DNA of 48,631 nucleotides from Candidatus Thermoplasmatota archaeon (GCA_035541015.1 DATLFM010000094.1:1-48631); one strand, 5' to 3'. Positions 1 through 12,548 are shown, counted from the stretch's first letter. Numbers and translations are program-made. The notes: a model not told the origin generated them from the sequence alone.

Positions 1-279
1 ATCGAGGTCGCGCCGCCCGAACCGACCGAGCCTGCGCCTGCGGCCTCCCCGCCGCCCCCGTCGCCCGCCTCCGACGAGCCGCTTCGGCGCGCCCTCCAGG
101 ACTTCCAGCTCATCTTCGCCGCCAAGGATCAGGAAAAGCAGGAGCTTTCCCAGCTTTGCGAGCGGATTGAAGCGCTTGAGGACCAGCTCTCCCGGACGGA
201 GGAGTACGTCCGCAGCGTGATCCTCGCCCGCCGGCAGAGCCGCCCCCCCGGGGAGCTTGGTCCCGGCCTTTCCCCCTGA
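1..279 (+). CDS. C-terminal part of an unknown coiled-coil protein (5' end outside window)
   Basis: The frame is open from base 1 to a TGA at 277-279, giving 92 residues. A Pro/Ala/Glu-rich linker (residues 1-27) is followed by a charged stretch from about residue 28 to 80 with heptad-like spacing (LQDFQLIF, LCERIEALEDQL) that should form a coiled coil, then a short Pro/Gly tail. No family is recognised. It ends 95 bases before the first archaellin, which has its own TATA box, so it is probably a separate transcript. An archaellum or chemotaxis role is possible from position only. Confidence 0.55.
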   Translation: MEVAPPEPTEPAPAASPPPPSPASDEPLRRALQDFQLIFAAKDQEKQELSQLCERIEALEDQLSRTEEYVRSVILARRQSRPPGELGPGLSP

Positions 280-332
280 TCCGGCCCGGGCTCCAAAAGT
301 CCCGATTTGGGGGATTCGTCCGTTTGCTCCGG

Positions 333-340
333 CTTTATTA
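333..340 (+). promoter_or_regulatory. TATA box of first archaellin gene
   Basis: CTTTATTA stands out in GC-rich surroundings. A start site about 25 bases downstream would leave a short leader that keeps the GGTGA Shine-Dalgarno at 365-369, just before the ATG at 374. Confidence 0.6.
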
Positions 341-373
341 GATTCTGACGCCGATCGGGCTTCCGGTGACGAG

Positions 374-1015
374 ATGAGAGCCAACCGGACAGCCCTACGT
401 TTGCGGAGCGAGCGGGCCGAGGTTGGCATCGGCACCATGATCGTGTTCATCGCGACGACGCTTGTCGCCGCGATCGCGGCCGCCGTGCTCATCGACACAA
501 GCGGCAAGTTGCAGGAGCGCTCCACGCGCACCGGCCAGGAGACCACGCAGCAGGTGGCCAGCAACCTCATGGTCGAATACATCGTCGCCCTGCGCGACGA
601 GTGGGACGGCCTTGGCAACCTCTCCTCCACCCTCAACTGGACCCAGATCTACCTCGGCCTTGCGCCGGGGGCAAGCAACGTGGACCTCGCGCAGATGCGC
701 GTCCAGGTCCGCGACGGCCACAACCAGCTCATCTTCCAGTACAGCAGCGAGAACCCTTGGACGGGCGCGGCGCTCGTGGGCACCTTCAACACGACGGCGA
801 TCCGAGACGCCGACGGCTCCTTCACGGCCGCCACGCCGGTCATGAACGCGGGGGACCTCATCCGCGTCTCGATCGCCAACGGACCCAACGGGTTCGATTG
901 GGGCCCGCGACGGGAGGTCTTGATGTACCTCATCCCCGAGGTGGGCAACCGCGTGCAGGTCGGTTTCCAGACGCCGGCGAGCTTCGGCACCGACTCCATC
1001 ATTACGCTGAAGTAG
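374..1015 (+). CDS. arlB: Archaellin 1 (archaellum filament protein)
   Basis: A 213-residue archaellin, the subunit of the archaeal swimming filament. The N-terminus is typical: a short basic leader (MRANRTALRLRSERA), then [20 protein letters not shown], the hydrophobic helix that packs in the filament core. Prepilin peptidase (ArlK/FlaK type) is expected to cut just before this helix. The C-terminal half is the beta-rich outer domain with conserved blocks RDADGSF and PVMNAGDLI. NxS/T sequons (NLS, NWT, NTT) suggest N-glycosylation. ATG 374 is chosen over an upstream in-frame start because of the GGTGA at 365-369 and because the same MRAN start recurs in archaellins 2 to 4. Confidence 0.95.
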   Translation: MRANRTALRLRSERAEVGIGTMIVFIATTLVAAIAAAVLIDTSGKLQERSTRTGQETTQQVASNLMVEYIVALRDEWDGLGNLSSTLNWTQIYLGLAPGASNVDLAQMRVQVRDGHNQLIFQYSSENPWTGAALVGTFNTTAIRDADGSFTAATPVMNAGDLIRVSIANGPNGFDWGPRREVLMYLIPEVGNRVQVGFQTPASFGTDSIITLK

Positions 1016-1144
1016 CGGCATCCATCAACAGGAAAATCGTGCGCCAGCGCGCGCTTTCTCGCCGACGGTCGCCGCGGTTGCGGCGGCCGTGTGTGCGGAC
1101 TTTCGAAAGCGGGTGTTTGTGCGGTTCTCCCATTCGATGGGGGG

Positions 1145-1152
1145 TTATTATA
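1145..1152 (+). promoter_or_regulatory. TATA box of archaellin 2
   Basis: TTATTATA lies about 35 bases before the ATG at 1185. A start near 1174 would place the GGTGA (1176-1180) at the extreme 5' end of the message. The 169-base gap after archaellin 1 thus holds a separate promoter; I see nothing else in it. Confidence 0.6.
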
Positions 1153-1184
1153 GCGGGCCGACATTCGATCCGCCGGTGACGAGC

Positions 1185-1796
1185 ATGCGGGCCAACCGCA
1201 ACGCCATTGACAAGCGAAGGGACCAAGCTGAGGTCGGCATCGGCACCATGATCGTTTTCATCGCCACCGTCCTGGTGGCGGCGATCGCGGCCGCCGTCCT
1301 CATCGACACGAGCGGGAAGCTGCAGGAGCGCTCCACGCGCACCGGGCAGCAGACGACTGAGCAGGTCGCAAGCAACCTGCAGGTGGACAGCATCATCGGC
1401 CTGCGCGACGCGGCGTCCGATGCTGGCATCAAGGACACCGAGGTCTACGTGGCGCTTGCGCCCGGCGCAAGCTCGGTGGACTTGAACGAGCTGCGAATCA
1501 TCGTTCGCACCGGCGCGGCCCAGTCGGTCCTCCGGTACGTGAACGGCGCCGCCTCGGCGACCGAGTTCTCGGCCGCAAAGGTGCGGGACGCCGACGGCGG
1601 CTGGACCGCCGCGAACCCCGTGATGAACGCGGGGGACCTCGTCAAGCTGCAGATCGACAACACGGCGATCAGCCAGGAATGGACCCCGCGCACGTCCGTC
1701 GTTCTCGAATTCTCGCCGGAGGTCGGCAACCAGATCGTCGTCGGCTTCCAGACGCCGAACAGCTACGGCGGGGACACCATCATCCGCCTCAAGTGA
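1185..1796 (+). CDS. arlB: Archaellin 2
   Basis: A 203-residue archaellin, very close to archaellin 1 in the leader and N-terminal helix ([20 protein letters not shown], then [20 protein letters not shown]) and divergent in the exposed domain. The blocks RDADGGWTAANPVMNAGDLV and the EVGNQIVVGFQTP end are shared. The MRAN start at 1185, with GGTGA upstream, is preferred over an upstream in-frame ATG at 1089, which would add 32 residues unlike any archaellin leader. Archaellin 3 follows after 24 bases, so both are probably on one message. Confidence 0.95.
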   Translation: MRANRNAIDKRRDQAEVGIGTMIVFIATVLVAAIAAAVLIDTSGKLQERSTRTGQQTTEQVASNLQVDSIIGLRDAASDAGIKDTEVYVALAPGASSVDLNELRIIVRTGAAQSVLRYVNGAASATEFSAAKVRDADGGWTAANPVMNAGDLVKLQIDNTAISQEWTPRTSVVLEFSPEVGNQIVVGFQTPNSYGGDTIIRLK

Positions 1797-1820: not shown

Positions 1821-2540
1821 ATGCGAGCCAACAGCAAGGCAATTCAACGCTTCCAAGACAAGGCCGAGGTCGGCATCGGCACCATGATCGTTTTCATCGC
1901 CACCGTCCTGGTGGCGGCGATCGCGGCCGCCGTCCTCATCGACACGAGCGGGAAGCTGCAGGAGCGCTCCACGCGCACCGGGCAGCAGACGACCGAGCAG
2001 GTGGCCAGCAACGTCCAGATCGAGAGCATCGTCGGCAAGCGCAACGCAACCTCCGCCGCCGGGCTCAACGAGACCGAGGTGTACATCACGCTGGCACCCG
2101 GCGCGAGCACGGTGGACCTGAAGCAGCTGCGCATCCACCTGTTCAACGGGACGAAGCAAACGGTGCTCGAGTGGTCCGGCACGAACCTCTGCACGGCCAC
2201 CGCGACGGGCTGCGCGGCCAACACCGCGTTTGCGACCGACACGGGAGCCTACGTGAACGCGACGAAGGGCAAGTACAACGCGACGGCCGTGCGCGACGCG
2301 GACGGCTCGTTCAGCTTCTCGTCGCCGGTCATGAACGCGGGGGACATGGTGAAGATCACGCTGAGCCTCTGGAAGGAAGGCCGTGACAACAACGGCGTGG
2401 CGCGCGAGGGCAACAACATGCCCTTCGAGCCCCGCGACGCGGTCACGATGATCTTCATCCCGGAGATCGGCAACCGCGTCCACGTCGGCTTCGTGACGCC
2501 GGCCACGTACGGCTCGGACACGTACATCACCCTCAAGTAG
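1821..2540 (+). CDS. arlB: Archaellin 3, long form with a cysteine pair
   Basis: A 239-residue archaellin, the longest here. The leader and core helix are almost the same as in archaellin 2, and the DNA of that segment is nearly identical, which suggests recent duplication or gene conversion. The outer domain has extra sequence around residues 115-155 that includes NLCTATATGCAAN, two cysteines seven residues apart that may form a disulfide; archaellins 1, 2 and 4 have no cysteine. Several sequons (NAT, NET, NGT) are visible. It is separated from archaellin 4 by a strong hairpin. Confidence 0.95.
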   Translation: MRANSKAIQRFQDKAEVGIGTMIVFIATVLVAAIAAAVLIDTSGKLQERSTRTGQQTTEQVASNVQIESIVGKRNATSAAGLNETEVYITLAPGASTVDLKQLRIHLFNGTKQTVLEWSGTNLCTATATGCAANTAFATDTGAYVNATKGKYNATAVRDADGSFSFSSPVMNAGDMVKITLSLWKEGRDNNGVAREGNNMPFEPRDAVTMIFIPEIGNRVHVGFVTPATYGSDTYITLK

Positions 2541-2620: not shown

Positions 2621-3235
2621 GTGCGAGCCAACGCCTTTTCGCGGGACCGCCGCGGGCGGGCCGAGGTGGGCATCGGCACGATGATCGTGTTCATCGCGAC
2701 CGTGCTCATCGCGGCCATCGCCGCCGCCGTCCTCATCGACACGAGCGGCAAGCTGCAAGAACGCGCCACGCGAGCGGGGCAGGACACGACCACGCAGGTG
2801 GCCACCTTCCTCTCCGTCGACAGCATCGTGGGCCTTCGCAGCAGCGTCTCGGACGAGGGCCTCCAGACGCTCGAGGTGTACGTCTCGCTTGCCGCCGGCG
2901 CCGCGGCCATGGACCTCGACCCCCTGCGCATCCAGCTGGGCAACGGCACGATGCGCCTCACGCTTGCCTACACAAGCGGCGCGCCGGGCGCGGGAACCTA
3001 CGCGGCCGAGGCGATCCGCGACCCCGACGGCTCGTTCTCCGCGGGCAATCCGGCCGTCACGTCGGGCGACGTCGTGAGGCTCACGATCGAGCTTGGAGCG
3101 GGGGCCAACGAGATGCCGCTTCGTCCGCGCGACGAGGTCACGATGACCTTCCTTCCCGAGGGGGGCGCCGCGCTCAACGTGGGATTCTCGACCCCGCCAT
3201 CCTACGGATCGAGCCTCATCATCCCCCTTAAGTAG
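2621..3235 (+). CDS. arlB: Archaellin 4 (GTG start)
   Basis: A 204-residue archaellin with the same leader and helix ([22 protein letters not shown]). The outer domain carries RDPDGSFSAGNPAVTSGDVV and a C-terminus (PEGGAALNVGFSTPPSYG) that has drifted from the EVGNxVxVGFQTP of archaellins 1-3. The start is GTG at 2621, fixed by the MRAN motif. No clear TATA box lies between the preceding hairpin and this gene, so it probably depends on read-through from archaellins 2 and 3. It could be a minor or terminal filament subunit; that is inference. Confidence 0.93.
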   Translation: MRANAFSRDRRGRAEVGIGTMIVFIATVLIAAIAAAVLIDTSGKLQERATRAGQDTTTQVATFLSVDSIVGLRSSVSDEGLQTLEVYVSLAAGAAAMDLDPLRIQLGNGTMRLTLAYTSGAPGAGTYAAEAIRDPDGSFSAGNPAVTSGDVVRLTIELGAGANEMPLRPRDEVTMTFLPEGGAALNVGFSTPPSYGSSLIIPLK

Positions 3236-4082: not shown

Positions 4083-4691
4083 ATGAAGGCTTGCCGCAAG
4101 GCGTTGGAACGGAACGATCGCGCCGAGGTCGGGATCGGCACGATGATCGTCTTCATCGCGACGGTCCTCGTCGCCGCCATCGCCGCCTCGGTCCTCATCG
4201 ACACGAGCGGGAAGCTCCAGGAGCGCTCCACGCGCACCGGCCAGGAGACGACCCAGCAGGTGGCAAGCAACCTTCAGGTCAACAGCATCACGGGCAAGCG
4301 CGCCTCCCTGTCCGAGGCGAACATGACCATGATGAACATCACGCTTAGCGTGGCTCCGGGCGCGCAGAGCATCGATCTCTCGCAGCTCATGATCCAGATG
4401 AACACCGGGCAGCGCGTGACCGTGCTCGGCTGGACGAGCGGGACGGAGTCGCAGGGCAAGTTCAACACGACGGCCCTGCGCGACGCCGACGGGTCGTTCA
4501 CGTTCCTCAACCCGGTCATCAACGCGGGGGACCTCGTGGTCGTGAACATCAACCTCACGGCCGACAGCCTCCAGCTCTCGGCCCGCAAGCCCATGGAGAT
4601 CCTGCTCGTGCCCGAGATCGGCACGCACGTGCGCGCCGACTTCATCGCGCCGGCAAGCTACGGCACGAACCTCGTCGTGACGCTCCGGTAG
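4083..4691 (+). CDS. arlB: Archaellin 5
   Basis: A 202-residue archaellin with the conserved core helix ([21 protein letters not shown]) but a leader, [12 protein letters not shown], unlike the MRAN leaders of the others. The outer domain has [20 protein letters not shown] and several sequons (NMT, NIT, NTT, NLT). A TATA-like GTTTATC at 4039-4045 and GGTGA at 4071-4075 precede the ATG. Its different leader and own promoter suggest separate regulation. It is the archaellin nearest to the motor genes. Confidence 0.95.
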
Positions 4692-4734: not shown

Positions 4735-4895
4735 GTCTTAAAGCGGCGGTGTTCTCCCGAAAGTCCGGTTTCCCCACCGACGCTTCCGGGAAAACGCCCC
4801 GTCCGTTCCGGTTATATCCCACCGCGCGTCGCAATACGTTCCCGGGTGACGGCGAGCCGACCGGCGGGATCGGCTTGCGCCCCGAGGTGAGACTC

Positions 4896-5948
4896 ATGTT
4901 CGGACGAGGGAAGAAGGAGGAGGGCCTCGCGGCCGCGCCGCCTGCGGCCGCCGCGCCGGCAATCGCCCCCGCGGCTGCGCCCGCGCCGCAGCCTCCCCCC
5001 GCGCCGCCGCCGTCGGCGCCCGCCGTTCCTCCCGCCGCTCCGGTTCCAGGCGCCGCGCAGCCCGAGCCGTGGATGCAGGACCTCTCCGAGAAGATCACGC
5101 TTCTGGCCAAGAGCGTCGACAGCGAGCGGGACACCATGAAGGGCTTCACCGACAAGGTGGGCCGCATGGAGGAGCGCATGAAGTTCCTCCTCAACCTCTC
5201 GGAAGTCCTCTCGATGAACTACAATCCGTTCCTCGGCCACGAGGAGGCCGAGCCCTTCGCCGGGGGCGCCAACATGACGCGCCCGACGCCGGGCAACGGA
5301 AACGGCGTCCGCGAGATCGTGCCGGTCGTGCCCGAAGACGACGCGCCCGTCGCGCTAGCCGTCCCGGGGATCGCCCCGGCTCAACCGGCGCCCGCCGACG
5401 CTGCGGCGCCCGCTCCCGCTCCGCCTTCCCTGGGCCTCGACGCGCTGCTTCCTCCCTCCGACCCGTCGCCCGGCTCCGCCGGGCCGGCCCCCGCGGCGAG
5501 CGCTCTGGCCCCGGCTCTCTCGTTCCCGCCGATGCCCCCGCTCATGAAGGCCCCATCCGTGCCCGTCTCGGGCATGTGGAAGGGCCCGCCGGGCGTGCCC
5601 GTGGCGGAGATGAGCGCGCAGGGATTGCGCGAGTCGTACGTCACGCTGCAATGGTTCGAGTACATGCTCCAGACGGTGGAGCCGCAAGACCTCCACCGCT
5701 TCATCGACTACTACCGCGAGGTGGGCTGGATCGGCGAGGAGGTGCACCAGTGGATGCGCAACCTCGCGCAGGGCATCGCGCCGCGGGACGAGTCCGCGCC
5801 GCCCTCGCGCGTGGTCGATCCCAAGGAGCTCGTCCACATCCACATGACAAGCCTCCGGTTCCTTGACTACCTCGCGGGCAACCGCCTCAACGAGGGCGAG
5901 GTCGTGCAGCTTGAACACGCGATCAAGCGCCTGGCCAAGCGCGGATAG
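4896..5948 (+). CDS. arlCE: Archaellum accessory protein ArlC/E fusion
   Basis: A 350-residue soluble protein of the archaellum motor switch region, thought to link chemotaxis input to the ArlH-ArlI-ArlJ motor. A Pro/Ala-rich segment (residues 10-55) leads to a helical ArlC-like region (about 60-110, SEKITLLAKSVDSERDTMKG), a long Pro/Ala linker, then the ArlD/E domain (about 225-345) with LRESYVTLQWFEYMLQ and FIDYYREVGWIGEEV. Fused C and E parts are typical of Euryarchaeota. ATG 4896 is preferred over an in-frame GTG at 4749 because GTTATATC at 4811-4818 lies between them and GAGGTGA precedes the ATG. Confidence 0.9.
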   Translation: MFGRGKKEEGLAAAPPAAAAPAIAPAAAPAPQPPPAPPPSAPAVPPAAPVPGAAQPEPWMQDLSEKITLLAKSVDSERDTMKGFTDKVGRMEERMKFLLNLSEVLSMNYNPFLGHEEAEPFAGGANMTRPTPGNGNGVREIVPVVPEDDAPVALAVPGIAPAQPAPADAAAPAPAPPSLGLDALLPPSDPSPGSAGPAPAASALAPALSFPPMPPLMKAPSVPVSGMWKGPPGVPVAEMSAQGLRESYVTLQWFEYMLQTVEPQDLHRFIDYYREVGWIGEEVHQWMRNLAQGIAPRDESAPPSRVVDPKELVHIHMTSLRFLDYLAGNRLNEGEVVQLEHAIKRLAKRG

Positions 5949-5971: not shown

Positions 5972-6406
5972 ATGGGGTTCAGCCTGATCGTGGTGGCGAC
6001 GATTCTCCTCACCGCGGGCCTGTTCGTGCTCACGCAGACGACAGGAGCGTTCCTCAACGCGCAGAAGAAGGTCCTGGAAGGCGTGAACGACGCGCAATCG
6101 CGCCTCGAGCGCGCCGCGCAAGGGGCCCTTCGCGTCGACGACGTCGTCTTCGAGGCATCGGGCACGCCGCGGGCGGTGATCACGGCCTTCAACGACGGCG
6201 CGGTCACGTACAACGCTAGCTTGGTGAACGTGCTGCTCGACGGCGTCGTGCGCGACGCCAACGTGACAAGCGTGCTCGTGGAAGGGGCGGAAACGCTCGT
6301 GTGGCCCCCCAAGACGACGCTTGTGCTGGAGGTCGCCAACCCGCAGCTTCCCGCCCACGTGGCGCTTGCCGCGCCCGACGGCAAGATGGCCTTCTGGAGG
6401 GAGTGA
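5972..6406 (+). CDS. arlF: Archaellum stator protein ArlF
   Basis: A 144-residue membrane-anchored protein. An N-terminal helix (GFSLIVVATILLTAGLFVL) precedes a beta-sandwich domain. ArlF and ArlG anchor the motor to the S-layer as a stator complex. It follows arlCE by 23 bases and precedes arlG by one base, so all are co-transcribed. The pattern MGFSLIVVATILLTAG followed by AFLNAQKKVLEGVNDAQSRL is usual for the family. Confidence 0.88.
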   Translation: MGFSLIVVATILLTAGLFVLTQTTGAFLNAQKKVLEGVNDAQSRLERAAQGALRVDDVVFEASGTPRAVITAFNDGAVTYNASLVNVLLDGVVRDANVTSVLVEGAETLVWPPKTTLVLEVANPQLPAHVALAAPDGKMAFWRE

Positions 6407-6407
6407 C

Positions 6408-6848
6408 GTGGCGTCGTCGGCCGTCACGGAGATGGTCTTCCTCATCGCCGGGATCCTCCTTGCGGGGTCGCTCGTCGTGATCGTAGGCGGCGTGTCAAAC
6501 GACCTTTCCGGAGGGCTCGACGCGCGCGGGGCGGGCGTCGCGCGGAGCCTGCGCACGGACGTCGCCATCGTGAACGATCCGTTCCAGATGAACTCGGACG
6601 ATCTCGTGCTCTACGTGAAGAACACGGGAACGGCCAACGTGCGCGTGACCCTGCTCACGGTCCTCCTCGACGGTCGTGTGTACACGAACGCGACCTTCGA
6701 CGTGCTCGGAAGCGACGACGACGACACGATCCGGCCCGGCGAGGTCGCGCAGGTCGCGGTCGCCGGGATCGTCCCGACGGGGGACCACCGGGCGCGCGTG
6801 GTGACGGAGAGCGGCATCGCCGCCGAGATCGAATTCCGGAGGAGCTAG
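6408..6848 (+). CDS. arlG: Archaellum stator protein ArlG
   Basis: A 146-residue protein with an N-terminal membrane helix (AVTEMVFLIAGILLAGSLVVI) and a beta-sandwich ending in GIAAEIEFRRS. In known systems ArlG filaments are capped by ArlF dimers and bind the S-layer. GTG at 6408 is chosen because it starts just before the hydrophobic helix and one base after the arlF stop. The next gene begins one base after its stop, indicating translational coupling. Confidence 0.88.
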   Translation: MASSAVTEMVFLIAGILLAGSLVVIVGGVSNDLSGGLDARGAGVARSLRTDVAIVNDPFQMNSDDLVLYVKNTGTANVRVTLLTVLLDGRVYTNATFDVLGSDDDDTIRPGEVAQVAVAGIVPTGDHRARVVTESGIAAEIEFRRS

Positions 6849-6849
6849 G

Positions 6850-7566
6850 ATGCAGCCGTACGGCTTCGGCCTCGACCGCGACGAGCTCTGCGAGCGCTTC
6901 GGGGGCGGCCTTCCCCGCGGCTCGCTCGTCATCGTCGAGGGCGAGTACGGGGCGGGCAAGTCCATCTTAAGCCAGCGTCTTTCCTACGGCCTCGTCCAGA
7001 ACGGCCACTCCGTGACCTACGTCTCGACCGAGCTCACGACGGCGGGCTTCCTCGACCAGATGGAGAGCCTCAAGTACGACGTCGAGAAGGCCGTCGTCGA
7101 GGAGCGCCTCGTCTTCATCCCCGTCTACCCGCTCCTCGGGGCGCGCGCGCCGCGTCACGACCTCCTCCGGCGCGTCGTGCGCACCCAGAAGATGTACACG
7201 AAGGACGTCATCCTCTTCGACAGCTTCTCGAAGTTCCTGGCCGACCACGAGCGCATGAGCGGCTCAAGCGCCGCGGCCATGGAGCAGATCGAGGAGGCCC
7301 TCTACCTCTTCAAGCGCCTGAACTCGCTGGGCAAGACGATCGTCGTGAACTTCGAGTCGGGCCAGGTGCGCGACGAGGTCGCAAGCCTGTTCAAGGAGAG
7401 CGCCGACATGTTCCTGTCGCTCAAGTTCGAGCTCCTGGGCAACGTGGCGGCGCGGCGCATCGTGGTGAACCGGCTGTCGCGGGCCCAGGGTCGCTTCGGC
7501 GACGTCATCGGGTACCGGGTCGAGCCGGGGGTGGGGATCGTGATCGAGATCAAGTCGGTCGTCTGA
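6850..7566 (+). CDS. arlH: Archaellum motor regulator ArlH (RecA-like ATPase)
   Basis: A 238-residue KaiC/RecA-fold protein that binds ATP and docks on the ArlI motor ring. Walker A EGEYGAGKS lies at about residues 31-39 and the Walker B-type strand VILFDSFSKFL at about 118-128. The length is usual for the family. Two ArlI paralogues follow, so this single ArlH presumably serves both. Confidence 0.93.
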   Translation: MQPYGFGLDRDELCERFGGGLPRGSLVIVEGEYGAGKSILSQRLSYGLVQNGHSVTYVSTELTTAGFLDQMESLKYDVEKAVVEERLVFIPVYPLLGARAPRHDLLRRVVRTQKMYTKDVILFDSFSKFLADHERMSGSSAAAMEQIEEALYLFKRLNSLGKTIVVNFESGQVRDEVASLFKESADMFLSLKFELLGNVAARRIVVNRLSRAQGRFGDVIGYRVEPGVGIVIEIKSVV

Positions 7567-7603: not shown

Positions 7604-9238
7604 TTGGAGGACGCAGTCGCCCGCAACCCCCACCTCGGGGCCTACCTCGCCTCGCTTGCCGCCCAGGGGAAGCCCCAGCCGGCATGGAAGCCCGTCATGA
7701 CGCGCGACCTCAAGGCCGCCAAGCCCCTCGACTTCCTGTACCCGGTGGGCGACCCCATCTTCGTCCACCTGGTGAAGGACGGCACGAGCCTGTTCCCTCG
7801 CTACTACGCGATCGAGCCCGTGCTTGCGCCCGAGGAGGAATCCACGTTTGAGGCGTTGAAGATGCAGGTGTTCCTGCGCGCGCCCGAGGTGGCCGTCCCC
7901 GACGAGCCGGCGGAGTACAAGGACGCGCTCGGGAAGCTCCTCGACAAGATCCTCCAAGGCGGCGGCGTCACCGTCGGGACGGGCTTCCGCAAGAAGCGCG
8001 TGCCCGTGAACGGCCCGCTTCTCGAGAAGCTTCGGTACGCCCTCTTCCGCGACGTCGTCGAGCACGGGCCCATCGAGCCGGTCATGCGCGACACGTGGAT
8101 CGAGGACATCAACGGCCTTGGCATGCGCAACCTGCACGTCGTGCACAAGATCTTCGGCATGGTGGACACGAACATCAAGTTCCGCGACCTCTCCCACCTC
8201 GACCGCTGGCTCGAGACGATGGGCGAGCGCATGGGGCGACCCATCTCCGACTCGAGCCCCATCGTGGACGGCGCCCTCCCGAACGGCTCCCGCATCAACG
8301 TCGTCTACAGCGATGCGGTGAGCAAGGGCGGCTCGTCGTTCACGATCCGCAAGTTCAGCGACACGCCGCTTCCAGCCACGCAGCTCATCGCGTGGGGCAC
8401 CTGGTCGGCGCGCATCGGCGCGTACCTGTGGCTGTGCCTGGAGAACGGAATGTCCGTCTTCGTGGCCGGCGAGACGGCCTCCGGCAAGACGACCACCTTG
8501 AACGGCATCCTTCCCTTCATCAAGCCGCGGAGCAAGATCCTCACCGCCGAGGACACGCCCGAGGTCCTCCCGCCGCACGCGAACTGGCAGCAGCTCATCA
8601 CCCGCGACCGGGGCAACAAGGAGAGCAGCGTCACCATGTACGATCTCCTCAAGGCCGCGCTGCGCTCCCGCCCCAACTACGTGATCGTGGGCGAGATCCG
8701 AGGCGCCGAGGGCGCCGTCGCCTTCCAGGCCATGCAGACGGGCCACCCCACCATGGCCACGTTCCACGCCTCCTCGGTGGGCAAGCTCATCCAGCGCTTC
8801 AGCAGCGACCCCATCAACGTTCCGCTGCCGTTCATGGACAACCTGAACGTCGTGCTCATCCAGATGGCCGTGTACGTCCACGGCAAGATGCTCCGCCGCG
8901 TGCTCGCCGTGGAGGAGATCGAGGGCTACAGCAAGCGCACGAAGTCCGTCATCACGCGGCAGGTGTTCGCGTGGGACCCCGTGTCCGACAAGTTCCAGTT
9001 CAGCGGGCGCAACAACTCGTACGTCCTCGAGAACCTCGTCGCCGAGAAGATGGGCTTCAAGGACAAGCGCGCGATCTACGCCGAGCTCGACAAGCGCACG
9101 GCGATCCTCGAGGAGTTCGCCCGCCGCAAGGAGTTCGACTACCACCGCATGGCGCGCTTCTTCCAGGAATACGCCGAGAAGGGCGACGCCGTGCTTCCCT
9201 TCCGCATCGAGGAGGCGATGGCATCGCACAGCCGCTGA
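7604..9238 (+). CDS. arlI: Archaellum motor ATPase ArlI, first paralogue
   Basis: A 544-residue secretion-type ATPase that powers filament assembly and rotation. The N-terminal domain (residues 1-200) precedes the ATPase core with DGSRINVVYSD-like sequence, Walker A GETASGKTTT near 289-298, the glutamate-bearing EDTPEV, Walker B VIVGEIRGAEG near 360-370 and the histidine motif HPTMATFHASS. All key residues are present. A TTG start at 7604 is used because no ATG or GTG lies near the N-terminal homology shared with the second copy (EDAVARNPHLGAYLA against LEEALAADPELARYLA). A complete second arlI follows. Confidence 0.92.
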   Translation: MEDAVARNPHLGAYLASLAAQGKPQPAWKPVMTRDLKAAKPLDFLYPVGDPIFVHLVKDGTSLFPRYYAIEPVLAPEEESTFEALKMQVFLRAPEVAVPDEPAEYKDALGKLLDKILQGGGVTVGTGFRKKRVPVNGPLLEKLRYALFRDVVEHGPIEPVMRDTWIEDINGLGMRNLHVVHKIFGMVDTNIKFRDLSHLDRWLETMGERMGRPISDSSPIVDGALPNGSRINVVYSDAVSKGGSSFTIRKFSDTPLPATQLIAWGTWSARIGAYLWLCLENGMSVFVAGETASGKTTTLNGILPFIKPRSKILTAEDTPEVLPPHANWQQLITRDRGNKESSVTMYDLLKAALRSRPNYVIVGEIRGAEGAVAFQAMQTGHPTMATFHASSVGKLIQRFSSDPINVPLPFMDNLNVVLIQMAVYVHGKMLRRVLAVEEIEGYSKRTKSVITRQVFAWDPVSDKFQFSGRNNSYVLENLVAEKMGFKDKRAIYAELDKRTAILEEFARRKEFDYHRMARFFQEYAEKGDAVLPFRIEEAMASHSR

Positions 9239-10893
9239 AGGTCGCGCACGTCCCGGGCAACGGCGGCCCGCCCGCGCAGCCCCCCGAGACGCTCGAGGAG
9301 GCGCTTGCCGCCGACCCCGAGCTTGCGCGCTATCTCGCTCGGTACCGCTCCGAGCACGGGCGCGTCCCGCGATGGGCGCGCGTGCTCGTGCCGCAGGTGG
9401 ACGATGCCGAGGTGGACGTCGTCTACCCCACCGCGCCGGGCATGTACGCGCACGTGCACACGGTGGACCGCCGCCAGCTGTACACGGTCGTGGAGCCCGC
9501 GCTCGAGGGGCCCGAGGTGAGGCTTGCGCTTGCGGCCAAGGACGCCATCTTCCAGGCCGCCCTGTACGACAAGCCGCCCAAGGGCCAGGCCGAGCTCGAA
9601 GCCGCGATCCTCCGCCTCTTCGACAAGGTCGTCGCGCCGACGAAGAGCCCCGGCAAGGTGCAGGTGGACCCGGCGCGCGCCCCGATCCTCCGCTACCACG
9701 TGCTCCGCGACATCGCGCGGTACGGGCCGCTTGAGCCCTTCATGCAGGATCCCTACCTCGAGGACATCCAGAGCGTGGGAACAGGCTACATCCACGTCAT
9801 CCACAAGTTCTTCGACATGCTTCCAAGCAACGTCCGCTTCGAGGACGAGGGCTACCTCGACTCGTACCTTCGCAACCTGTCCGAGCGCATCGGACGGCCC
9901 GTCTCCGACGCGCGCCCGATCGTGGACGCGACGCTCTTTGACGGCTCGCGCATCAACGTCGTCTACAGCGACGACGTGTCCCGCAAGGGGCCGAGCTTCT
10001 CGATCCGCCGCGTGCACGAGAACCCCCTCTCCGTCACGCAGCTCATCGCGTGGAAGACCTTGACGGCCCAGATCGCCGCGTACCTGTGGCTGTGCCTGGA
10101 GAACTCCATGTCGCTGTTCGTGTGCGGCGAGGCCGCGTGCGGCAAGTCCACCACGCTGAACTCGATCCTGCAGTTCATCCCGCCGCGAAGCAAGCTCTAC
10201 AGCGCCGAGGACACGCCCGAGGTGCGGCCCGCGCACCCCGTCTGGCAGCGCCTGCTCACGCGGGAGTCGGGTCCCGAGGAGGCGCGCGTGAAGATGTTCG
10301 ACCTCCTCAAGGCCGCGCTGCGGTCGCGCCCGAACTACATCGTGGTGGGCGAGATCCGCGGCGCCGAGGGCGCCGTCGCCTTCCAAGCCATGCAGACGGG
10401 GCACCCGACCGTCGCCTCGTTCCATGCGAGCAACAAGGTGAAGATGATCCAGCGGCTCACGGCCGATCCCATCAACATCCCGCTCACGTTCATGGACAAC
10501 CTGAACGTGGCCGTCTTCCAGCAGGCGCTCTACAAGAAAGGTCGCCTCATCCGCCGCGTGACGGCCGTGGACGAGATCGAGGGCTACAGCGAGATGGACG
10601 GGGGCATCATGACGCGGCCCGTCTTCGTCTACGACGCCGCGTCGGATCGCCACACGTTCAAGGGGATGAACAACTCGTACATCCTCGAGAAGAAGATCGC
10701 CGAGCAGCACGGCTACGAGGACCCGCGACAGATCTACGCCGAGCTCGAGCTTCGCACGCGCGTGCTGCAGGGCATGGTGGACCACGGCATCCTGGAGACC
10801 CACGAGGTCAACCGCCTGCTGTTCGCCTACGCGGACAAGGGGCCCGCCTGCCTTCCCTTCAAGGTCGACATGCCGGAGGGGCTGCCGCATTGA
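9235..10893 (+). CDS. arlI: Archaellum motor ATPase ArlI, second paralogue (probable CTG start)
   Basis: A 552-residue second ArlI, homologous to the first over its whole length. Walker A GEAACGKSTT is near residue 298, and EDTPEV, VVGEIRGAEG and HPTVASFHASN are intact, so it should be active. The frame is -1 relative to the first copy. No ATG, GTG or TTG exists before GTG 9382, which would remove the conserved N-terminus (LEEALAADPELARYL). CTG 9235 overlaps the previous stop as CTGA, the same layout as TTGA at the arlI2/arlJ junction. A weaker option is ATC 9223, about 8 bases after GGAGG. Minus-one frameshifting into a fusion is also possible. Confidence 0.88.
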   Translation: MKVAHVPGNGGPPAQPPETLEEALAADPELARYLARYRSEHGRVPRWARVLVPQVDDAEVDVVYPTAPGMYAHVHTVDRRQLYTVVEPALEGPEVRLALAAKDAIFQAALYDKPPKGQAELEAAILRLFDKVVAPTKSPGKVQVDPARAPILRYHVLRDIARYGPLEPFMQDPYLEDIQSVGTGYIHVIHKFFDMLPSNVRFEDEGYLDSYLRNLSERIGRPVSDARPIVDATLFDGSRINVVYSDDVSRKGPSFSIRRVHENPLSVTQLIAWKTLTAQIAAYLWLCLENSMSLFVCGEAACGKSTTLNSILQFIPPRSKLYSAEDTPEVRPAHPVWQRLLTRESGPEEARVKMFDLLKAALRSRPNYIVVGEIRGAEGAVAFQAMQTGHPTVASFHASNKVKMIQRLTADPINIPLTFMDNLNVAVFQQALYKKGRLIRRVTAVDEIEGYSEMDGGIMTRPVFVYDAASDRHTFKGMNNSYILEKKIAEQHGYEDPRQIYAELELRTRVLQGMVDHGILETHEVNRLLFAYADKGPACLPFKVDMPEGLPH

Positions 10894-12548
10894 TCGACCT
10901 CGCGAAGACGTTCCAGACGCTCAACATGCCCCCGAGCCGGTACGTCACGTTCTACGCCGTGCCCATCGTGGCCGTCGGCATCGTGCTCGCCCTCCTGGTC
11001 CCGCGCCTGGTCGCGCCCCTGCTGCCCGAGTTCGTCGCGCCGCTTGTCCCGATTCTCCTCGTCGCTTTTGCCGCCGGCGTCGCGATCCTGCTTCCGGTCT
11101 CGCTCGCCGACAGGAAGCGCGCCGAGATCAACAACGCCATCCCGTTCTTCATGACGCACTTTGGCGTCCTCTCGACGTCGAACATCCCGCGCGCCGAGAT
11201 CATCCGCATCCTCGGCGAGAAGAAGGAGTACAACGCGCTCGCCGATGAGATGCAGCGCATCTACAGCCTCGTCTCGAACTGGAACCTGTCGCTCCCGCAG
11301 GCCTGCCGGTTCGTCTCGAAGACGACGCCCTCGAACATCCTCGCCGACTTCCTCGAGCGCCTGGCCCACGCGCTCGAGACCGGTCAGGACCTCGAGGTGT
11401 TCCTGCGCAACGAGCAGAGCGTCGTCATGAAGGAGTACGCGACGGTCTACGAGACGTCCATCTACCAGCTCGAGGGCATGAAGGACCTCTACCTCTCGAC
11501 GATGATGTCGGGCGTCTTCCTCGTGATCTTCGCCATCATCACGCCGCTTCTCACCGGCATCGATCCTTCGCAGCTCCTCGTCGGCATCCTGTTCCTGTTC
11601 TTCTTCCTCGAGGTCCTGTTCCTGTTCATGCTTCAGTCGCGCGCCCCCAGCGACCGCCTGTGGCATCGCCTCGACATCGTGACGAAGGAGCGCAACCAGA
11701 TCCAGCTCCTCGTGACCGGGGGCGCCGCCGCGGCCATCGTGATGTTTTTCCTGCTGCCGCGCCTGCTGGACGTGCCCGTCGGGCTCGCCCTTGCCGTCGC
11801 CGTCACGCCCATGGCCGCCGCCGGCCTCTTCGCCGAGACGGTCGAGGCGCGCGTGAAGCGGCGCGAGGACAACTACGCCGCCTTCGTCCGCTCGTTGGGC
11901 TCCTCGCTTGCCGCCAAGGGCGGATCGCTGCGCGAGGTCCTAAAGAAGCTCATGGCGCACAACTTCGGCCCGCTTACCACCCAGGTCCACAACCTCTTTG
12001 CGCGCCTGACGTGGCGCCTGCACGACGTGCTCGCCTGGAAGCACTTCTCGGCCGAGAGCGGCAGCAACCTCATCGAGAAGTTCAACGCCATGTTCATCGA
12101 AGGCATCCGCGCGGGGGGCAAACCGCAGGCCGTGGGCGAGATCATCAGCACGAACGTGACGCGCATCCTCAACCTGCGCAAGAGCCGCTACGGGACGGCC
12201 GGCACGTTCCGGCGCCTCATGCTCGGCTTCACCGCCGGCATGGCCTTCACGCTGTTCATCGGCATCGGCATGCTCGACGTGCTGAACTCGCTCTTCGGGC
12301 TTGCGAGCGTGCCCACCACCCTCGTTCCGATCCACCTCACGATCGACGTGGACACCTCGGGCATCGAGGAGATGCTCTTCTTCCTGCTCGTGTTCCACGC
12401 GCTTGCCGCGGCCGTCATGCTGAAACTCGTCGACGGCGGCGACTGGTCGGCAAGCTTCGTGAATTTCGTGGCCATGGTCTGGATCGCCGTGCTCATCAGC
12501 TACGCGAGCAAGGCGGTCATGGGCGGCATCTTCACGTTTGCCGGGTGA
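10890..12548 (+). CDS. arlJ: Archaellum membrane platform ArlJ
   Basis: A 552-residue polytopic membrane protein related to type II secretion PilC/GspF, the platform on which the ArlI ring turns. A hydrophobic pair near residues 22-70 is followed by a cytoplasmic domain (IPFFMTHFGVLSTSNIPRAE), paired helices near 205-250 and 275-315, and further membrane helices in the last 130 residues. TTG 10890 overlaps the arlI2 stop (TTGA) and has GGAGGGG upstream. It is the last gene of the archaellum operon; a GC-rich hairpin follows. Confidence 0.92.
   Translation: MIDLAKTFQTLNMPPSRYVTFYAVPIVAVGIVLALLVPRLVAPLLPEFVAPLVPILLVAFAAGVAILLPVSLADRKRAEINNAIPFFMTHFGVLSTSNIPRAEIIRILGEKKEYNALADEMQRIYSLVSNWNLSLPQACRFVSKTTPSNILADFLERLAHALETGQDLEVFLRNEQSVVMKEYATVYETSIYQLEGMKDLYLSTMMSGVFLVIFAIITPLLTGIDPSQLLVGILFLFFFLEVLFLFMLQSRAPSDRLWHRLDIVTKERNQIQLLVTGGAAAAIVMFFLLPRLLDVPVGLALAVAVTPMAAAGLFAETVEARVKRREDNYAAFVRSLGSSLAAKGGSLREVLKKLMAHNFGPLTTQVHNLFARLTWRLHDVLAWKHFSAESGSNLIEKFNAMFIEGIRAGGKPQAVGEIISTNVTRILNLRKSRYGTAGTFRRLMLGFTAGMAFTLFIGIGMLDVLNSLFGLASVPTTLVPIHLTIDVDTSGIEEMLFFLLVFHALAAAVMLKLVDGGDWSASFVNFVAMVWIAVLISYASKAVMGGIFTFAG

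Follow-up and report, generated by a model that had tools for sequence, protein, structure and literature searches.

Tandem, diverged arlI genes in an archaellum operon of Candidatus Thermoplasmatota suggest a mixed two-subunit motor ring

A doubling of arlI, the archaellum motor ATPase gene, was confirmed in the archaellum operon of a Candidatus Thermoplasmatota archaeon; the doubling is real and conserved, and is an exception to the published one-ATPase description. Both products, ArlI1 and ArlI2, are ordinary members of the ArlI family, and their two-subunit arrangement is a departure from the archaellum motor as described. The archaellum has been taken as a one-ATPase machine, in which ArlI drives assembly as well as both directions of rotation; the two-copy ArlI suggests a mixed two-subunit motor ring, a proposal that is open to test.

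The window, that is the whole stretch of DNA analysed (48,631 nucleotides), is contig C94 of G000, a 2.2-Mb genome assembly of 114 contigs (completeness 96%, contamination 1.9%), and the archaellum operon forms its left end, with all genes on the + strand. Five archaellin genes were identified with PF01917, at positions 257..1015 (E 2.8e-29), 1089..1796 (E 9.6e-34), 1821..2540 (E 3.1e-33), 2621..3235 (E 4.7e-32) and 4122..4691 (E 8.6e-33); the true starts of the first two are possibly further in, and the start of the fifth is approximate. These are followed by an arlC/D/E-type gene with FlaC-like and FlaD/E domains (4749..5948, start approximate; PF04659, E 2.7e-14), for which the Pfam search covered 4896-5948 and a PF05377 match falls under its cut-off. 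A probable arlF (5972..6406), without a match in the Pfam search, was named from gene order and position only, and a probable arlG (6411..6848), with an archaellin-like fold (PF01917, E 2.3e-12), was likewise named from gene order. Next come arlH (6850..7566; NF052589 ArlH, 240 bits, cut-off 215), arlI1, the canonical motor ATPase copy (7604..9238), arlI2, the P-loop-altered copy (9235..10893), and arlJ (10890..12548; NF004704 ArlJ/FlaJ, 577 bits, cut-off 550). Both arlI products exceeded the 550-bit cut-off of the NCBIfam archaellum-motor FlaI model (NF058587), with 682 and 665 bits respectively. An earlier sequence-only reading had placed two arlI genes head to tail between arlH and arlJ, each of the latter being single; the gene positions and model scores bear this out, with only one arlH and one arlJ in the operon. 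The arlJ gene starts with a TTG that overlaps the arlI2 stop (TTGA, 10890-10893) and, since the genes of the operon overlap or nearly abut, their translation is likely to be coupled.

The predicted arlI1 product has the 544 amino acids read previously, and its TTG start is the first ATG, GTG or TTG of its open frame. No such codon was found in the arlI2 frame near the position homologous to the start; the frame begins with a CTG that shares bases with the arlI1 stop codon (CTGA, 9235-9238), so that the 552 residues given for ArlI2 presuppose a CTG start at 9235, and the start codon is uncertain. At the same junction the relative L036 has ATGA. A true CTG start or a base error in the assembly are both possible, the latter because the assembly contains at least one frameshift, in rpoB. 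That gene (G000:C63:626-1760) is present as two overlapping frames, which points to indel errors in the assembly.

The two copies are only 48.6% identical, and are therefore not an assembly duplicate. Both align with FlaI crystal structures over almost their full length, and an AlphaFold model of ArlI2 (mean pLDDT 83) had FlaI as its best fold match. Against TIGR01420, the PilT/PilU family, they scored 67 (ArlI1) and 46 bits (ArlI2), and with a cut-off of 319 neither is a member. The N-terminal region and the catalytic residues are retained by both, including K295, T/S296, E320, R354, E364 and H388 of the nucleotide site, where residue 296 is a serine in ArlI2. Other secretion-ATPase matches in the genome, at 38-41% identity to ArlI1 and approximately 300 bits or less, were read as pilus-type, whilst both ArlI copies sit with arlH and arlJ in the archaellin operon.

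Divergence between the copies is visible at conserved motifs. ArlI1 carries a canonical TIRKF strand (residues 247-251; 8342..8356), a canonical P-loop, GETASGKTT (residues 289-297; 8468..8494), and a canonical His box, QTGHPTMATFHA (residues 378-389; 8735..8770). The corresponding ArlI2 segments are SIRRV (10000..10014; T247S, K250R, F251V), GEAACGKST (10126..10152; T291A, S293C, T296S) and the His box QTGHPTVASFHA (10393..10428), in which T379 and H381 are unchanged and T386 is replaced by serine. The Walker A strings quoted in the sequence-only reading, GETASGKTTT and GEAACGKSTT, were correct.

The order arlH-arlI-arlI-arlJ, with single arlH and arlJ, was read in 33 loci from several lineages. 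A search of relatives for tandem pairs, proposed alongside the original observation, recovered this order in the independent metagenome-assembled genomes (MAGs) L036 (G151) and L037 (G076). Archaellum-type ArlI was found in 162 of the 390 genomes searched in the window's phylum, mostly as one match, whilst families f16 and f34 of the same phylum regularly carried two ArlI, which adjoin behind arlH in the 17 genomes read. Two f16 loci, L137 and L143, were assembled with a split upstream arlI, through either early decay or sequencing error. Tandem pairs were also present in Methanoperedens-like archaea (seven loci) and in Hydrothermarchaeota (six loci, among which G881 has the order of the types reversed); in G879, a further Hydrothermarchaeota genome, the two arlI copies lie on different contigs. 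Within the order of the Methanoperedens-like G390, ArlI was encoded by 97 of 150 genomes and tandem pairs by seven, and within its wider phylum ArlI was found in 158 of 394 genomes, with pairs in two. No relatives of the pair were found in viral contigs. Among the closest genomes of the order to which the window belongs, G003 and G004 each have a single arlI, and G001 and G002 lack it; single-copy relatives together with a decaying copy had been named as evidence against a kept pair, and the former do exist, but neither copy here decays.

Phylogenetic analysis separated I1 and I2 of the window, grouping I1 with the I1 copies of L036 and L037 and I2 with their I2 copies (100/100 for both clades). 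For close genome pairs, dN/dS was 0.01-0.10 for both copies, like that of arlH and arlJ; the comparison of the window with L036 was left out, as synonymous sites look saturated. The suggestion of an old, kept duplication thus holds, given the full support for separate clades and purifying selection in those lineages where it was measurable. In the trees, the I1 clade of f16/f34 is sister to the I2 clade of the same families, the Methanoperedens-like I1 and I2 clades fall among Methanosarcinales-type ArlI, and those of the Hydrothermarchaeota are a group of their own. A single ancient duplication, with all I1 forced together, was rejected by the AU test (delta lnL 381, p ~1e-100), as was orthology of the window-lineage and f16/f34 pairs (delta lnL 328, p 2e-46, 26 of 27 segments agreeing). 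Since these constrained trees were rejected, the phylogenies indicate that there were at least four separate doublings, in the window lineage, f16/f34, the Methanoperedens-like archaea and the Hydrothermarchaeota. Gene conversion sparing the P-loop was considered as the source of the S293C common to the window lineage and f16/f34, and was rejected: no segment around the P-loop favours orthology between the two, and members L139 and L186 of the f16 I2 clade still carry S293. Between the two Hydrothermarchaeota arrangements, the altered copies have T291S, S293C and T297S in common and the partners D412G, and orthology of the altered copies was only marginally rejected (p 0.048). In view of these shared changes and the marginal rejection, the two were counted as one origin. 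For the window-lineage doubling, dates before and after the split from G003/G004 are both compatible with the data (p 0.15); in the arlH+arlJ tree, the single-copy G003 lies just outside the three doubled operons.

The operon and the genome have different histories. In an RpoB tree G000 grouped with G001-G006, whilst G151 and G076 grouped together (100/98) and then with f16/f34 (100/100). In the ArlI1 and ArlH+ArlJ trees the window was instead sister to G151, and a G151+G076 clade was rejected (p 0.003 and p 0.0001, respectively). A mis-binned contig was considered and rejected: the MCM and Asp-tRNA-synthetase-like genes, at 30 and 42 kb, are nearest to those of G001 and G002, within the genome's own family and order, Hef on the same contig is nearest to that of G003, of the same order as G000, and the GC content of the arl region is similar (67%, against 69%). 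A chimeric join left of approximately 15 kb is a slight possibility. On the basis of these gene trees, the contig is assigned to G000 and the arl operon, including the pair, is considered to have been exchanged between classes, since the contig is native but the operon on it has its sister in another class.

The pattern of substitution was assessed against 97 single-copy ArlI (68 representatives below 90% identity), which defined 80 invariant positions in ArlI1 numbering. Window-lineage I1 departs at one of these (H464F), and I2 at eight: T247S, K250R, F251V, T291A, S293C, T296S, T386S and T297, the last being mixed across the lineage and kept as threonine in the window itself. At six P-loop-side positions (T247, K250, F251, T291, S293 and T297), which are a conservation feature of single-copy ArlI and not a formal family definition, ArlI1 of the window keeps every residue and ArlI2 changes five. 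Other duplicated lineages have one copy altered in the same region. The f16/f34 I2 copies carry S293C (13 of 15), E290G, K250R and R334K, one Hydrothermarchaeota copy carries T247S, F251Q, T291S, S293C, T297S and R334V, and Methanoperedens-like I1 carries T297A, T318A and R334K; S293C is thus seen three times among the duplicated lineages. The partner copies keep the P-loop-side positions that are altered in the other copy, and in two lineages are changed in the His box, with T379A and H381N in all seven Methanoperedens-like I2 and T379A and H381R in all five Hydrothermarchaeota I1 (H381L in I2 of G881). The partner copies of the window lineage and of f16/f34 have intact His boxes, and only the P-loop half of the pattern is visible there. 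The P-loop-side overlap between lineages exceeded a uniform permutation null (p 0.0015 for at least two lineages, 0.0004 for at least three), which takes positions as equally mutable when real positions differ; the P-loop-type copy was named after inspection, and an eightfold correction gives p ~0.01 and 0.003. Changes at T379 and H381 in the partners of two lineages gave a permutation p of 0.001, and the P-loop-side and partner position sets do not overlap across lineages. All copies inspected keep the Walker A lysine and the glutamates and arginines of the nucleotide site, and S293C, T291A/S and T297A need not change ATPase activity.

A structural meaning for these two sets is offered by PilB (5tsg), in an alignment with which T291, T379, H381 and H388 of ArlI correspond to T327, T411, H413 and H420 (numbering offset checked with E357). 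T327 in one PilB packing unit contacts T411 in its neighbour, and T411 itself is flanked by H413 and H420 of the His box, to which cooperativity between chains has been tentatively attributed (PMC5424180). By this contact, the two sets of changes would sit on opposing sides of a single contact between subunits. We consider there to be about an even chance that a single archaellum motor is built from two specialised, co-expressed ArlI paralogs, likeliest as a mixed ring. ArlI1 would supply a canonical nucleotide site, and ArlI2 a site with its catalytic lysine, glutamates and arginines retained and its P-loop side remodelled (GEAACGKS, SIRRV). Mixed under a single ArlJ, they would form interfaces of two kinds, canonical and altered, as opposed to six equal ones. 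With strict 3+3 alternation, all altered faces would fall in the same three interfaces: an A3B3 ring would bring A's altered P-loop together with B's altered His box at three interfaces and keep the remaining three fully canonical, whereas either homohexamer would have one altered side at all six contacts. That alternation confines both alterations to the same three interfaces is the main argument for a mixed ring; in addition, duplication of a protomer is expected to yield heterohexamers by default (PMC6711533). The argument from complementary P-loop and His-box changes rests on the Methanoperedens-like and Hydrothermarchaeota pairs, the window contributing the P-loop half; the hetero-hexamer raised as a possibility in the sequence-only reading has thereby gained indirect support, from interface changes in other duplicated lineages. 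Co-assembly of ArlI1 and ArlI2, their stoichiometry and any gain in torque or switching are inferred. A stricter proposal is put forward tentatively: on at least four independent occasions in the archaea, a homohexameric motor would have given rise to an alternating ArlI-a3/ArlI-b3 rotary motor, in which three of the inter-subunit nucleotide sites are canonical and the other three altered. F1-type rings keep catalytic sites apart from non-catalytic sites, and the ArlI-a3/ArlI-b3 motor, if true, would be a natural counterpart of that split.

Of the other explanations, the one that survives best, though we regard it as unlikely, is that the copies form two separate homohexamers with divided labour, alternating on or stacked under ArlJ, with filament assembly assigned to one and rotation, high load or the opposite direction to the other, in the manner of PilB/PilT or PilT/PilU; the sequence-only reading had also raised a split between assembly and rotation. 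Two full-length intact ATPases with one ArlJ and one ArlH are compatible with such a division, and type IV pilus ATPase paralogs do split tasks, PilT and PilU as homohexamers (PMC6821130). However, both copies retain the N-terminal region, and in FlaI it is the loss of this region that uncouples swimming from assembly (PMC12019362). Some of the residues invariant in 97 of 97 single-copy motors are missing from each member of the Methanoperedens-like and Hydrothermarchaeota pairs, which makes lone homohexamer motors harder to explain. Less probable again is constructive neutral evolution or dosage, in which the duplicate was retained for its expression level or because the subunits of mixed rings came by drift to depend on one another, and the motor gained no new property. 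Heteromers as the default result of duplication (PMC6711533), catalytic residues untouched by the changes and the sufficiency of one copy in most lineages all accord with it, but alteration of the same positions, and even to the same residue (S293C), in separate duplications is poorly predicted by drift alone, and dosage alone predicts no copy-specific changes. It is highly improbable that one ATPase serves another filament, such as a pilus, and is merely placed in the arl operon: the genome does encode further pilus-type secretion ATPases and filament systems can share parts, but curated models call both copies ArlI, far above pilus models, and the placement between arlH and arlJ is constant in 33 of 33 loci, without a second platform gene. 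An artefact, whether a chimeric contig or the assembly duplication against which the sequence-only reading had cautioned, can be given almost no credence, for despite the operon's position at a contig end, the rpoB frameshift and the non-standard arlI2 start codon, the copies differ at over half of their residues, independent MAGs have the same order, and the closest relatives of the conserved genes located 30 and 42 kb along the contig belong to the genome's own family and order.

Repeated tandem doublings, with interface changes that are specific to one copy and recur across lineages, are natural experiments on which interfaces must fire and whether six equal sites are needed. The doubled arlI also bears on whether assembly and rotation can be divided, and on how hetero-oligomeric rotary ATPases evolve from homo-oligomers.

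Other rearrangements of the same genes were observed. At a contig end of G006, which also has a normal arlH-arlI, L121:4490-5887 (G006:C137) holds a second arlH and a divergent (35%) arlI, possibly a second, diverged archaellum locus in the same class. The ANME/Methanosarcinales-type loci L078, L082, L084, L085, L088, L093 and L096 have the opposite pattern, with two tandem arlH genes upstream of one arlI. The arlI gene of at least three Methanosarcinales-type genomes (L147:1126-4449, L148:1206-4532 and L149) ends in TAG and is directly followed by an in-frame arlJ GTG, with an arlJ ATG nine bases further on, and in about a dozen genomes arlI-arlJ is an open frame of approximately 1107 codons with one TAG; if TAG is read as pyrrolysine in those genomes, read-through would fuse ArlI to ArlJ.

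Published descriptions agree with the premise that known archaellum operons have one arlI: FlaI is single-copy in archaella (PMC4858521), all known archaella encode one ATPase according to a 2025 paper (PMC12448462), and ArlI has been called 'the sole archaellar ATPase' (PMC6711533). No report of a two-ArlI archaellum was found in the open-access literature, and one may exist elsewhere; papers on Marine Group II archaella mention the operon, and in their passages on it no tandem doubled archaellum ATPase was found. The pair shares full-length homology, arlH and arlJ neighbours and catalytic residues with ArlI/FlaI of S. acidocaldarius (4ii7/4ihq), but the published protein is single per archaellum, whereas this operon encodes a diverged pair in which ArlI2 is remodelled on its P-loop side. 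Cuniculiplasma divulgatum CdiPE1/CdiPE2 are likewise two ATPase paralogs in one archaeal filament operon; that operon, however, encodes a pilus and not an archaellum, its platform protein is split, and it was reported as unique and enigmatic (PMC12448462). Neighbouring pilus-type secretion ATPase pairs were observed at L122:2484-5193 (G016:C26), G025:C115:20100-23094 and G018:C11:31386-34471, and such pairs thus occur in several genomes of the phylum, in contrast to the reported uniqueness of the C. divulgatum pair. Bacterial PilT/PilU and PilB/PilT are also paralogous type IV filament ATPases on one platform, but have extension and retraction roles outside the archaellum, and Vibrio PilT and PilU form separate homohexamers (PMC6821130). 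Methanosarcina, with its double archaellum loci (PMC4858521), has two arlI per genome through duplication of whole loci, whereas in the operon described here only arlI has been doubled, within one locus.
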